Positions 50,112 through 56,380 of a DNA stretch of 64,000 bases are shown here, piece by piece (the first letter of the stretch is position 1; every line of letters starts with the position of its first letter). The stretch is from positions 1 to 64,000 of the forward strand of contig JAFTQG010000012.1 in NCBI GenBank assembly GCA_017462915.1, read 5' to 3'. The notes under the pieces were generated by a model. The model was given only the letters and a program-made list of their open reading frames with translations, did no database searches and was not told the DNA's origin. Both the position numbers and the translations under genes were made by a program. This DNA is from Prevotella sp. (GTDB taxonomy: Bacteria > Bacteroidota > Bacteroidia > Bacteroidales > Bacteroidaceae).

Positions 50112-50206
50112 TACGGTTATGAGTTATGAGTTATAGAAGAGTAATATCCGCACAACCTCCTAACCGCCTAACCGTATAACCGTACAACCGTATAACCGCA
50201 AAATCA
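50112..50206. repeat. Family A octamer-arm repeat, copy A5
   Basis: It begins CGGTTATGAGTTATGAG, then an inverted core AGAAGAGTAATATCCGC. A right arm of CCTAACCG, CCTAACCG, TATAACCG, TACAACCG units follows. Confidence 0.7.
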
Positions 50207-50258
50207 TGGAAACCGTACAAAATTGAGGCATAGCGAATGGAAATTGAAAACTTTTGAT

Positions 50259-51710: not shown

Positions 51711-51867
51711 GTATGCGGTTTTTCGGTTAGGCGGTTATACGATTATACGGTTATACGATTATACGGTTGTGCGGTTATACGGTTTTACGGATATTACTCT
51801 TCCTGTAACTATAAGCCAAGAACCAATATCCGCATAACCGCAAAACCGTATAACCGCAAAACCGAAA
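51711..51867. repeat. Family A octamer-arm repeat, copy A6
   Basis: The left arm has ten consecutive 8-bp units (ACGGTTAT, ACGATTAT, GCGGTTAT types), then the core ACGGATATTACTCTTCC, then a right arm CCGCATAA, CCGCAAAA, CCGTATAA, CCGCAAAA. It fills the gap between converging MATE and trpA genes and touches both stop codons. Confidence 0.9.
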
Positions 51868-51868
51868 A

Positions 51869-52645
51869 TCATTCCGCCAGAGCCACCATCAGCCTGTCAA
51901 GAGCTTCGTCGGCGTTACGGCTTTCGTTGAGCAGAGTCACGAACTTAGAGCCTATGATTGCTCCGGCAGAGTACATTTGCGCGCTCTCCAGTGTCTGCCT
52001 GTTGCTTATTCCGAAGCCGGTCATCAATGGGTTGCGCAGTCCCATGTCATTGATACGTCTGAAATATTCCAGCCGACTGTCGTCGAAAGACTGCTGTGCA
52101 CCTGTTGTGGCGGCAGATGACACCATATAAAGGAAGCCTTCCGTATTGCTGTCGATGAGGCGTATGCGCTCTTCGGATGTCTCTGGTGTTATGAGCATTA
52201 CTATCCTTATGCCGTATTTGTCGGCGACAGGCTTTATCTTTGCCATATAGTCGCTGAACGGCAGGTCAGGGATTATCGCTCCGCTTACTCCGCTGTCGGC
52301 ACATGCGCGGCAGAAATCCTCGATGCCGTACTGCATGATTACGTTAAGATAGCCCATGAGTATCACAGGTATGTCTATCTCGTCCTTTGCCTCCTTCAGC
52401 TGGTCGAATATCTTCTGCAGGGTCATGCCGTTTCTCAGGGCTTTTGTCGCGGCATCCTGTATCACGGGGCCGTCGGCCATAGGGTCGCTGAAAGGTATTC
52501 CCACTTCCACCATTGATATGCCGTGACGCTGCATTGCACGTATCACGTCGGCAGTGTCCTCTGCTGTAGGGCAGCCTGCACAGAAATACAGGGACAGGAG
52601 CTTCCTGTCTTTATTGTCTGCGAATAGTCGGTTGATTTTATTCAT
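51869..52645 (-). CDS. trpA: Tryptophan synthase alpha subunit
   Basis: A 258-residue TIM-barrel lyase that splits indole-3-glycerol phosphate and channels indole to TrpB. The catalytic Glu lies in MVEVGIPFSDPMADGP (about 45-60), which also carries the catalytic Asp. The phosphate loop is MTGFGISN. It is full length. It is the last gene of the operon, 18 bp after the trpC-trpF chimera. Its substrate would have to come from elsewhere, since IGP synthase is lost here. Confidence 0.95.
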   Translation of the reverse strand: MNKINRLFADNKDRKLLSLYFCAGCPTAEDTADVIRAMQRHGISMVEVGIPFSDPMADGPVIQDAATKALRNGMTLQKIFDQLKEAKDEIDIPVILMGYLNVIMQYGIEDFCRACADSGVSGAIIPDLPFSDYMAKIKPVADKYGIRIVMLITPETSEERIRLIDSNTEGFLYMVSSAATTGAQQSFDDSRLEYFRRINDMGLRNPLMTGFGISNRQTLESAQMYSAGAIIGSKFVTLLNESRNADEALDRLMVALAE

Positions 52646-52663: not shown

Positions 52664-53329
52664 TCACAAAATTATTTGTGCTTGGTTTTGTATATTCGTT
52701 TCGTCTGCTTTCTTCTGTAAGTCTGCCAGCTTACCTATGAATCTTCTCACGGCTTCGGCATCCTTGCAGGCAGGAGCGGTCTCGAACTTTGAGTTTATGT
52801 CTATGCCGAGCATCATCGGGTGGTGTATATGCATGACACGGCTGGCATCGTCAGAGCCTATCCCTCCGCTGAGAAGGAAAGGCCTGTTGCCGTCGTATGC
52901 GTTGATGATCGTCCAGTCGAACTGTCTTCCGCTGCCTCCTGATGTCTCGCATCTTGTGTCAAAAAGGAACAGGTCCACGCAGTCTTCATAGCGGCGGAAT
53001 GTCTGCATATCGTCTGCATTGCCTATGCTTATCGCTTTCATTATCTTGATGTCTTGGCGTACTTGCCTTGCGACAGAGCTGCGGAGCTCGCGTATCATGG
53101 CAGGACTCTCGTTGCCATGAAGCTGCAGTATGTCAAGGCGGTAGTCTATGGAGGTGCTGATGATGCCGCTTCCCTCCATTATCGCCTTGCTCATGGATGC
53201 TGTCGGTACTGTTTCTCCAAGAATCATGTCCTCCACCTGACGGCGGATGTCCTTTTCTGTCAGTATCTTCTTGAAGCGCTCCACTTCAGTACGCTTGTGG
53301 GCTGTTATCTCGTTCAATATATCTTTCAT
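52664..53329 (-). CDS. TrpC-TrpF in-frame chimera (both enzymes incomplete)
   Basis: A 221-residue protein. Residues 1-58 match the N-terminus of indole-3-glycerol phosphate synthase: MKDILNEITAHKRTEVE and SMSKAIMEGSGIIS. At exactly the point where TrpC would read EFKRRSPSKG, with its catalytic Glu and Lys, the sequence switches. Residues about 62-205 match the C-terminal two thirds of phosphoribosylanthranilate isomerase: DILQLHGNESP, LFDTR, GGSGRQFDW, FLLSGGIG and GIDINSKFETAPACKD. TrpF's N-terminal catalytic Cys (K-V-C-G) is missing. Neither activity should remain. About 0.8 kb appears deleted. Start, stop and spacing to trpD (9 bp) and trpA are normal. Confidence 0.85.
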   Translation of the reverse strand: MKDILNEITAHKRTEVERFKKILTEKDIRRQVEDMILGETVPTASMSKAIMEGSGIISTSIDYRLDILQLHGNESPAMIRELRSSVARQVRQDIKIMKAISIGNADDMQTFRRYEDCVDLFLFDTRCETSGGSGRQFDWTIINAYDGNRPFLLSGGIGSDDASRVMHIHHPMMLGIDINSKFETAPACKDAEAVRRFIGKLADLQKKADETNIQNQAQIIL

Positions 53330-53338
53330 GACACTTTC

Positions 53339-54337
53339 TTATGAGTTTATCTCTGCAAATCTTCTGAATGCGGCAAATGCCCTGCCGCTGTCTATTGACT
53401 CACGGGCGGCTTCCACGCAGTCTTCGATGCTCTTCCTGCCTTTCTCCATCACCTGTATGGCAAAGGCGGCATTAGCCATGACGACATCCTTCTGGGCTTT
53501 TGTGGCAGTGTTTGCCAGCACCTTGTCGAATATCTCCTTTGCCTCCATCTCGTCGGCGCCGGCCTTTAGCTCCTCGGGAGTGATTGTCTCCATGCCGAGC
53601 TCGGAAGGCTTGAATATGCGTTCGTAGTCGTTTGTGGTTACCTTGAAGTCGCCGGTGAGTGAAATCTCGTCATAGCCGTCCATGCTGTTCACTATGCCAT
53701 AGTCTATGCCTATCTTCTGATACACATTGCTGTAGAGGCGCATCTGGTCGAGGTTTGCCACGCCGAGCAGTTGGCATTGCGGTTTTGAGGGGTTGACAAG
53801 CGGACCGAGAAGGTTGAAGCATGTAGGGAACTGGAGTGCCTTGCGTATCGGGCCGACAAACTTCATGGCATGGGCAAAGAGCTGTGCATGCAGATATACT
53901 ATGCCTGCTTCGTTGAGGCTTCTGTTGAGGATGTCGGCGTCGGCAGTGAATCTTATGCCGTGGTTTGCCATTACATCTGAGGCTCCGCTGGTGCTTGTCG
54001 ACGCATAGTTGCCGTGTTTAGCCACCTTGTAGCCTGCACCGGCAATCACGAAACAGGCGGTGGTGGATATGTTGAACGTATTCTTGCGGTCGCCTCCTGT
54101 GCCCACCACATCTATGTATCTGTCGCAGTCAAGTATGGCAGGCACGCCCGTCTCCAGTATTCCGTCACGGAAACCTAACAGTTCGTCTACCGTAATGCCT
54201 CTCATCTGCAGCGCCGTGAGCAACGCCGTTATCTGTTCCTTGGCATATCGCTCCTGTGTTATGCCTATGAGGATGTCCTTTGTCTCCTCGCGTGTCAGTG
54301 CTTCTTGATTGAGCACTCTTTCCAGAATCTGTTTCAT
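53339..54337 (-). CDS. trpD: Anthranilate phosphoribosyltransferase
   Basis: A 332-residue enzyme joining PRPP to anthranilate. It is full length, with the N-terminal helical domain, KHGNYASTSTSGASDV and a C-terminal NAAFAIQV segment. The PRPP/Mg loop normally reads GTGGDGxxTxN; here it is GTGGDRKNTFN, an Arg in place of the second-loop Gly. That change could weaken PRPP binding or be tolerated; it may hint at relaxed selection. It follows the trpE-trpG chimera by 5 bp. Confidence 0.9.
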   Translation of the reverse strand: MKQILERVLNQEALTREETKDILIGITQERYAKEQITALLTALQMRGITVDELLGFRDGILETGVPAILDCDRYIDVVGTGGDRKNTFNISTTACFVIAGAGYKVAKHGNYASTSTSGASDVMANHGIRFTADADILNRSLNEAGIVYLHAQLFAHAMKFVGPIRKALQFPTCFNLLGPLVNPSKPQCQLLGVANLDQMRLYSNVYQKIGIDYGIVNSMDGYDEISLTGDFKVTTNDYERIFKPSELGMETITPEELKAGADEMEAKEIFDKVLANTATKAQKDVVMANAAFAIQVMEKGRKSIEDCVEAARESIDSGRAFAAFRRFAEINS

Positions 54338-54342
54338 GATTG

Positions 54343-54966
54343 TCAGTGTTTTATCCAGTTTTCCATCATTTCTCTGCCGTCAGTCGTCAGCACGCTCTCG
54401 GGATGAAACTGCAGTCCTCTTATGTCGAGTGTCCTGTGGCGCAGTGCCATGATATGCCCCTCGTCGCTTTCTGCCGTTATCTCCAGACAATCGGGCAGGT
54501 ATTCCCTGCTCACCACCCACGAATGATACCGTCCCATGGTAATGCGGCGCGGAAGTCCATTGAACATATAGTCATTGCCCAGCTGTGTCCCTTCTGTCGC
54601 AATGCCATGAAACACACGGTCGAGATTGGCAAGTCTGCCGCCGCAACACTCAGCCTTTTCGCCTTCGATGCTGATCCTTTCCGTCAGCGACCTTATGGCG
54701 TCGTGTACGTGGCAGTCATCATCTATGTCACGCTCCTCACGGGTGCTGTCGGGCAGTGTGATGATGGCTTTGCCGTGGTCTATCGCTACCTGTGCCATAG
54801 GACGCACGCAGATGAACGAACGGCTGTTGTTACGGTCGTGGTAGTCGCTGCTTTCCATCAGCACGCTCTGCGGATACATGTCGCGCAACCTCATGTATAC
54901 GCTCACAGGGGTATGCATGTCGGCAAGCATCGTCCTGGTTTTTGTGGTGTAGTTAAAAGTTTCCAT
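54343..54966 (-). CDS. TrpE-TrpG in-frame chimera (both subunits incomplete)
   Basis: A 207-residue protein. Residues 1-105 match the N-terminal regulatory part of anthranilate synthase component I (FNYTTKTRTMLADMHTPVSV, LRDMYPQSVLMESSDYH). The whole chorismate-binding catalytic domain (about 365 residues) is gone. From residue 109 it matches component II, the glutamine amidotransferase, beginning just after its nucleophile elbow: GGRLANLDRVFHG, GRYHSWVV, IMALRHR, LQFHPESVL. The His-Glu pair of the triad survives, but the Cys (GVCLG) is lost. The junction (near 54630-54660) lies in a GC-rich TGCGGCGGC stretch, which fits a short-homology deletion of about 1.3 kb. It overlaps trpB by 14 bp. 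Confidence 0.85.
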   Translation of the reverse strand: METFNYTTKTRTMLADMHTPVSVYMRLRDMYPQSVLMESSDYHDRNNSRSFICVRPMAQVAIDHGKAIITLPDSTREERDIDDDCHVHDAIRSLTERISIEGEKAECCGGRLANLDRVFHGIATEGTQLGNDYMFNGLPRRITMGRYHSWVVSREYLPDCLEITAESDEGHIMALRHRTLDIRGLQFHPESVLTTDGREMMENWIKH

Positions 54967-56161
54967 ATTCTCCAGCCATATGTTTATGTGAAATATAAGT
55001 TTCCATATCCTTGTCGCCGCGTCCGCTTACGGTAAGCACGACGACATCATCCTTCCTGAAATCCATCTTCTGCAAGGCGGCGATGGCGTGCGCGCTCTCC
55101 AGTGCAGGTATTATTCCCTCCATACGGGTCAGTTCGTAGGCTGCCTTTATCGCCTCGTCATCGTTTATCGGCAGTACCGTGGCACGGTGTTGCTGTGCTA
55201 TATTTGCGTGCATGGGGCCTATCCCGGGATAGTCAAGTCCTGCCGATATAGACTCCGCCTCTATGATTTGTCCGTCGGTAGTCTGCATCACGAGGGTCTT
55301 GCTTCCGTGCAGTATGCCCAAGCGTCCGGCATGTATCGTTGCTGCAGTGTGTCCGGTATCGGCTCCGAGTCCTCCTGCTTCTGCCAGCACGATATTGACA
55401 CGCTCGTCGTCGATGTAGTGGTATATGGTGCCGGCGGCATTGCTTCCTCCGCCCACACACGCCATGAGCCAGTCGGGATAGTCGCGTCCGGTCTTCTCGA
55501 GCAACTGTTCCTTTATCTCCTCAGAGATGATACTCTGCAGGCGCGCCACCATATCGGGGTAGGGATGCGGACCTACCGTGCTCCCGATGATGTAGAAAGT
55601 GTCCTGCGGATGGCAACACCAGTCGCGTATCGCCTCGTTTGTGGCATCCTTCAGTGTCATGTTTCCTGTTGTCACAGGGCGCACCTCGGCTCCGAGCATC
55701 CTCATGCGCTCCACGTTGAGACGCTGCCTCTCCACATCGAGAGCCCCTTGATATACCACACACGGCATGTCCATCAGCGCGCAGACTGTTGCCGTCGCCA
55801 CACCGTGCTGGCCGGCTCCAGTCTCGGCTATGATGCGCGTCTTGCCCATCTTCTTTGCCAAGAGTATCTGTCCTATGGTGTTGTTTATCTTGTGAGCACC
55901 GGTGTGGTTGAGGTCCTCACGCTTCAGATACAGTCGGCAACCGTATTTCTCGCTCATGCGCCTGGCATAATACAACGGCGAGGGACGCCCCACATAGTCG
56001 CGCAGGAGCTGCATGTACTCATCCCTGAACTCCTTGCTTTCGAGCACTTTCAGATACTCTTTCTTGAGATTTTCCACGGCGGCATACAGTATTTCCGGGA
56101 TGTATGCTCCGCCAAACTCGCCGTAGAATCCTTGTCCGTCTACATGAAATGTCTTCTTCAT
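54953..56161 (-). CDS. trpB: Tryptophan synthase beta subunit
   Basis: A 402-residue PLP enzyme condensing indole with serine. The PLP lysine lies in NHTGAHKINNTIGQ (about 85-98). The ETGAGQHGVATA indole-site loop, the phosphate-binding CVGGGSNAAG and the C-terminal VSGRGDKD are all intact. It is first in the operon, as in other Bacteroidales. With TrpA it could still convert imported or environmental indole to tryptophan even though the early pathway is broken. Confidence 0.96.
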   Translation of the reverse strand: MKKTFHVDGQGFYGEFGGAYIPEILYAAVENLKKEYLKVLESKEFRDEYMQLLRDYVGRPSPLYYARRMSEKYGCRLYLKREDLNHTGAHKINNTIGQILLAKKMGKTRIIAETGAGQHGVATATVCALMDMPCVVYQGALDVERQRLNVERMRMLGAEVRPVTTGNMTLKDATNEAIRDWCCHPQDTFYIIGSTVGPHPYPDMVARLQSIISEEIKEQLLEKTGRDYPDWLMACVGGGSNAAGTIYHYIDDERVNIVLAEAGGLGADTGHTAATIHAGRLGILHGSKTLVMQTTDGQIIEAESISAGLDYPGIGPMHANIAQQHRATVLPINDDEAIKAAYELTRMEGIIPALESAHAIAALQKMDFRKDDVVVLTVSGRGDKDMETYISHKHMAGEYGNF

Positions 56162-56224: not shown

Positions 56225-56267
56225 GGTATAAAGAAACAAGGCTCGCCGCAATCGCGACGAGCCTTGT
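56225..56267 (-). terminator. trp attenuator terminator
   Basis: On the minus strand ACAAGGCTCG (56258-56267) pairs with CGAGCCTTGT (56236-56245), extended by an inner TCGC-GATT-GCGG stem, then TTCTTTAT. It lies between the leader peptide and trpB and should stop transcription when charged tRNA-Trp is plentiful. Confidence 0.85.
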
Positions 56268-56299
56268 ACTATGGTTATTCCAGCTTACAAAACAGGAAC

Positions 56300-56380
56300 T
56301 CAGGTATACGGCATCATGCCTCGCGACTTTTTCAATCTCGAGTTCTGCCACCACCATGAGTTGGTCTGTATTCTTGTCAT
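56300..56380 (-). CDS. trpL: trp leader peptide with three consecutive Trp codons
   Basis: A 26-codon ORF between the trp promoter and the attenuator. Codons 9-11 are TGG TGG TGG (complement of 56348-56356). The N-terminus is MTRIQTNSWWW and the stop is TGA. Ribosome stalling at these codons under tryptophan shortage would favour an antiterminator and expression of trpB onward. Coding potential cannot be judged from length, but position, Trp triplet and attenuator agree. Confidence 0.85.
   Translation of the reverse strand: MTRIQTNSWWWQNSRLKKSRGMMPYT

Follow-up and report, generated by a model that had tools for sequence, protein, structure and literature searches.

Two separate deletions between short matches, each leaving an in-frame hybrid without active site, most likely reduced the tryptophan (trp) operon of this Prevotella sp. 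in the course of ordinary pathway decay. One deletion would have joined trpE to trpG by taking the end of the former and the start of the latter, the other would have done likewise with trpC and trpF, and the joints point to a RecA-independent short-repeat mechanism for both. The pathway would no longer be needed, with tryptophan synthase, its last enzyme, left whole, and TrpB/TrpA may still convert external indole to tryptophan. The strain is predicted to need external tryptophan, a need that indole could perhaps cover. We propose no novel type of system; the case offers a clean snapshot of pathway loss, with a sister carrying whole genes, joints readable to the base and a near-complete genome.

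The trp operon and its two chimeric genes

Open reading frames and Pfam domains of the window (the whole stretch of 64,000 nucleotides that was analyzed) gave the operon order trpB, trpE'-trpG' chimera, trpD, trpC'-trpF' chimera, trpA. For comparison we used a metagenome-assembled genome (MAG), Prevotella sp. isolate SC0317_S2_2 (L071), termed the sister, with a trpB about 94% identical to that of the window. This MAG and genome G060 of our collection appear to be the same assembly, as they agree in contig number and in match coordinates. The genes are as follows.

54953..56161, minus strand: trpB, 402 aa, whole, at the head of the operon (ORF, Pfam; dN/dS versus sister 0.048)
54343..54966, minus strand: trpE'-trpG' chimera, 207 aa, first ~109 residues of TrpE and last ~98 of TrpG (ORF, Pfam, sister)
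53339..54337, minus strand: trpD, 332 aa, whole, between both chimeras (ORF, Pfam, dN/dS)
52664..53329, minus strand: trpC'-trpF' chimera, 221 aa, open frame, TrpC 1-58 and TrpF from about 61 (sister numbering)
51869..52645, minus strand: trpA, 258 aa, whole, last gene of the operon (ORF, Pfam, dN/dS)

An earlier note on this DNA had described two independent in-frame fusions that leave trpB, trpD and trpA whole, which the open reading frames and Pfam domains support. The genes of the operon remain tightly spaced. Eight loci of relatives carried a trp cluster, four in the order B-E-G-D-C-F-A, to which the window also belongs (in one of the four the trpC start is known only from the separate chimera-match survey), and four in the order D-C-F-A-B-E-G. 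Next to the operon, short CCGTATAACCG / CGGTTATACGG repeats (50130-50210 and 51718-51870) flank a MATE-like gene on both sides; aligned to the sister, the part of the window past trpA likewise yielded short inverted matches.

Residues 1-58 of the trpC'-trpF' chimera correspond to residues 1-58 of sister TrpC (88% identity) and residues 56-217 to residues 61-222 of sister TrpF (86% identity). The switch occurs at GSGII/STS, where sister TrpC goes on with AEFKRRSP, and the KVCGMR start of sister TrpF including the Cys is missing. We take both the EFKRRSP block and the N-terminal Cys to be catalytic parts, of TrpC and TrpF, respectively. Hence position and description of this chimera in the earlier note were right, as were the first 58 TrpC residues, the switch directly ahead of the EFKRRSP block and the loss of the TrpF Cys. 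Only the retention of the last two thirds of TrpF was set slightly low, as 162 of 222 residues (73%) are kept. The chimera does not qualify as a functional IGPS (TrpC, PF00218), with PF00218 matched neither by the chimera nor elsewhere in the genome and the EFKRRSP block gone, nor as a functional PRAI (TrpF, PF00697), with the Pfam match restricted to PRAI profile positions 65-191 of 193 and KVCGMR gone, nor as a bifunctional TrpC-TrpF fusion, with only 58 residues of TrpC and 162/222 of TrpF. As far as the assembly can tell, it is a real remnant, and likely dead.

The trpE'-trpG' chimera was confirmed as well: Pfam assigned Anth_synt_I_N to residues 1-80, followed by GATase at residues 89-187. 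The TrpE chorismate-binding domain and the TrpG Cys region, both presumably catalytic, are absent.

Deletion joints and missing pathway genes

The comparison with a sister strain, proposed in the earlier note as a check, was run and revealed separate and whole trpE, trpG, trpC and trpF in the sister. These genes are found there on two contigs ending inside trpD, one with trpB-trpE-trpG-trpD start, the other with trpD end-trpC-trpF-trpA. DNA identity between window and sister was 93.9-94.5% on the first contig and 87.5-90.0% on the second. The contig ends (L078 end and L071 start) map to the window 4 bases apart, with a change there from 94.5% to 90.0% identity, which perhaps reflects a strain mix in the sister MAG. 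Two deletion joints were located, with the sister as stand-in for the true parent at both and the missing lengths given as alignment offsets versus the sister.

54641..54651, minus strand: E/G deletion joint, 1336 bp gone relative to the sister, parental match of 9/11 bases, 3 exact at the breakpoint
53160..53164, minus strand: C/F deletion joint, 830 bp gone relative to the sister, parental sites matching at 5 exact bases

Matched bases were thus found at both pairs of parental breakpoints (9/11 with 3 exact, and 5/5), as expected for short-repeat deletions, which leave a single copy at the joint. Using 20000 random breakpoint pairs per site, the 9/11 match was reached by 0.165% (E/G) and 5 exact bases by 0.61% (C/F). 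Other measures were less striking, i.e. 5.5% of random pairs reached 3 exact bases at E/G, and at C/F no 11-base window matched better than 6/11. Since each joint lies on a short match, each looks like a short-repeat deletion. At the E/G joint the matched bases have codon phase 2 in either gene; at the C/F joint both parental sides read Ile-Ile in frame. A deletion between matches of equal codon phase in both parents preserves the frame by itself. Most simply, the preserved frame at both joints is due to chance: a pair of deletions with no bias towards any frame would keep it at both places in one of nine cases. The earlier view that two such collapses are hard to explain by random decay is therefore unsupported. 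A recombination between two related barrels at matching places was rejected for the C/F joint, because the joint does not fall on matching strands: it presumably sets the beta-1 start of TrpC against the alpha-2/beta-3 region of TrpF. A search of viral contigs yielded 0 and 0 matches for the two joints, which says little, as this collection is not aimed at bacterial DNA and records near the window were possibly excluded.

Replacement genes were sought by family searches covering this assembly (99.97% complete, 59 contigs); as a control, IGPS, Chorismate_bind, PRAI and GATase were all matched in 14 control genomes. No match to IGPS was obtained anywhere in the genome. Chorismate_bind had no match in the genome either, and with it the search turned up neither TrpE nor PabB nor an isochorismate synthase belonging to this family. 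For PRAI, the trpC'-trpF' chimera alone exceeded the cut-off, with two weaker matches below it. One of six GATase matches was the trpE'-trpG' chimera; the other five were by eye unlike TrpG and resembled CarA, PyrG, GuaA, HisH (beside HisA) and a GATase with a dipeptidase-like part. Three marks of a decaying pathway were thus found, namely intact orthologs in near kin, loss of catalytic parts and lack of a replacement gene in the family searches. From the gene content we predict that tryptophan synthesis from chorismate is beyond this strain.

Constraint, polarity and alternative explanations

Compared to the sister, dN/dS was 0.048 for trpB, 0.057 and 0.065 for the two contig parts of trpD, and 0.099 for trpA; for the pieces it was 0.118 (E'), 0.138 (G'), 0.161 (C') and 0.226 (F'). 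With every value well under 1, the differences probably date for the most part from a time when the genes still worked. Protein divergence between window and sister relative to trpB (median of intact pairs in brackets) was 2.5 (2.05) for E', 1.69 (1.52) for G', 3.59 (2.55) for C' and 3.93 (2.5) for F', i.e. above the medians for all four pieces and within the range of intact pairs. Low dN/dS and divergence inside this range suggest that both breaks are probably young or fairly recent. Relative-rate counts (window:sister) were mixed overall, with 1:5 for C', 9:4 for F', 5:3 for E' and 3:1 for G', and 4:7 for trpB, 2:2 for trpD and 5:8 for trpA. At conserved columns, the window lineage departed at 4/179 positions of the pieces versus 2/716 of trpB, trpD and trpA (p 0.017), the sister lineage at 2/179 versus 8/716 (p 1.0). 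Very few changes enter this comparison; p was 0.011-0.018 at thresholds of 0.7-0.85, 0.15 at 0.9 and 0.17 at 1.0. The excess hints that constraint on the pieces may have been lifted some time ago, a signal that fails at the stricter thresholds. Per whole gene, the departures of the window amounted to 0/293 conserved columns in trpB, 1/168 in trpA and 1/255 in trpD. The value for trpD, which would be useless under pathway decay, counts against that reading, and so does the divergence of the pieces inside the range of intact pairs.

Upstream of trpB, the regulatory region has retained two elements.

56300..56380, minus strand: ORF of a trp leader peptide, 26 aa, with three Trp codons in a row, MTRIQTNSWWWQNSRLKKSRGMMPYT
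56236..56267, minus strand: terminator-like hairpin, 14 pairs, between leader ORF and trpB

With the Trp-codon leader and the hairpin retained, a shortage of tryptophan may still act on the operon transcript. Of 16 loci queried, 15 gave a result; related W-rich leaders lie ahead of trpB in 10 loci besides the window, and the four loci without leader are those of permuted gene order. Rfam at the gathering threshold gave no match at 56236-56380. Among the literature matches listed, the titles and abstract starts of the best ones described no trp leader in this group; the available text of one paper mentions leader genes in Bacteroidetes in general terms only (PMC4833913).

Presence of TrpA (over the curated cut-off) and TrpC was surveyed in 276 genomes of the genus, at least 90% complete. 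Both were found in 190, neither in 74, TrpC only in 11 and TrpA only in 1, which is the window's own genome; no parallel case of TrpA over cut-off without TrpC occurred among the other 275. Three genomes counted within the 74 (G231, G283, G345) had a TrpA match below cut-off and no TrpC. Pathway loss is common in the genus, and the intermediate with TrpA and without TrpC is rare, which fits a stage that does not last long. The 11 genomes with TrpC and no TrpA match were G016, G017, G075, G084, G163, G311, G337, G384, G399, G408 and G419; in G016 trpC adjoins trpF.

The indole step is that of TrpB, with TrpA as helper. The earlier note had proposed selection against polarity, allowing continued indole use by TrpA/TrpB. 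Under this explanation only frame-keeping deletions survived, as shifted frames would silence the downstream trp genes and cost the indole use. Both chimeras in frame, the tight spacing, the whole trpB, trpD and trpA, the few departures in trpB and trpA, and the remaining leader and hairpin of an operon that is maybe induced when tryptophan is short are all consistent with it. However, trpB precedes both deletions and its expression should not hinge on the frames of the joints, so polarity could touch trpD and trpA only. Furthermore, the chance of one in nine for both joints, the 0/275 parallel cases and the equal preservation of trpD, which has no role in indole use, weaken the proposal, and we regard it as unlikely. 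Similarly doubtful in our view is its extension that the operon stands midway to an indole-salvage operon, so that Prevotella would be approaching the trpRBA end state of Chlamydia, and in which frame-keeping collapses would be tolerated or favored because a leader-controlled transcript must deliver TrpB and TrpA.

Compared to the preferred decay by two deletions, an assembly artefact or a minority strain variant, with whole genes collapsed by the assembly, appears quite improbable. We are aware of the fact that the case comes from one genome and from assembled sequence alone. Nevertheless, the matches at the joints (3-11 bases) are far shorter than assembler words, both joints are interior to a contig of 89,425 bases, and the lost domains were found on none of the 59 contigs. 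Conserved residues lost from the pieces in this lineage, a weak signal gone at strict thresholds, also argue against an artefact. A new role of one or both chimeras as stable proteins, in favor of which their stop-free frames of 207 and 221 aa and the dN/dS of the pieces (0.12-0.23) might be cited, can practically be dismissed, given the loss of the presumed catalytic parts (TrpF Cys start, TrpC EFKRRSP, TrpG Cys region, TrpE chorismate-binding domain), the one-piece match in 1/60 genomes only, the window-specific departures that are commoner in the pieces than in the whole genes, and a barrel presumably short of strands at the C/F joint.

Known systems and related genes in the genus

Two deletions in a decaying pathway can be compared to several known systems. 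Genital strains of Chlamydia trachomatis carry trpRBA with indole salvage and have lost the upper tryptophan steps; trpF is listed as retained in C. trachomatis too, and as the sole trp gene of C. muridarum (PMC9378776). A catalytically impaired TrpA of C. trachomatis still raises TrpB activity four-fold (PMC9378776), so TrpA might matter for indole use here as well. Like the window, C. trachomatis lost the upper steps and kept TrpA and TrpB, with indole usable there and possibly usable here; it differs in having missing genes and a TrpR repressor, according to this text, instead of in-frame chimeras and an attenuator-like leader. In gut-associated Bifidobacterium TrpB converts external indole to tryptophan (PMC11085991). 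The text reports an assay and a TrpB forming a chimeric polypeptide with TrpC in this other phylum, whereas genes alone are considered here. RecA-independent deletions between short direct repeats are reported for an E. coli K12 background (PMC5426353); as at our joints, the stretch between short matches was lost, though for the window the mechanism is deduced from the joints. Tryptophan auxotrophy was predicted for 63.9% of the genomes of a gut bacterial catalogue (PMC10689445). These are whole-pathway predictions, and the available text mentions no in-frame chimeras, unlike the window. Among the literature matches listed, titles and abstract starts of the best ones held no description of a trp chimera of this kind. 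Judged from its genes, the window case is most likely ordinary in kind, i.e. in-frame fusion remnants of a decaying pathway.

A chimera-match survey covered 60 genomes of the genus, the own genome included and many of them incomplete. A one-piece match over residues 1-221 was restricted to the own genome (1/60), with no other C/F chimera of this extent in the 59 others. Both halves were matched at separate places in 19/60 genomes, in 18 of these 19 in different frames. The longest match elsewhere (residues 30-201, G015) was rejected as chimera because a full IGPS lies directly beside it. Eight of the 60 genomes had a TrpF match and no TrpC (G003, G005, G010, G012, G014, G026, G029, G046). These were rejected as C/F chimeras as well, since seven of the TrpF frames have their own K(V/I)CGMR start and none begins with TrpC; G005 carries a diverged TrpF-like frame without this start.

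Five of the eight genomes, 99% complete (G003, G010, G026, G029, G046; loci L044, L045, L047, L048, L049), kept TrpF with no TrpC or TrpA match. Their TrpF gene is located beside an rpe-like and a NusG-type-like gene (names by eye), and in two of them a TrpG-like gene adjoins TrpF as well. A trpF-trpB pair was observed in G012 (L046 6608-8561), a genome with neither a TrpC nor a TrpA match. In G053 (L058 5668-7167) the two matched halves lie at opposite ends of a single full-length TrpC-TrpF fusion (499 aa), a true gene of the bifunctional type. It resembles the window chimera in that TrpC and TrpF share a single frame; however, both enzymes are complete there, and the window chimera has instead lost the greater part of TrpC together with the TrpF start. 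The IGPS matches of G431 and G483 also belong to long open frames, 503 aa and 549 aa, respectively.
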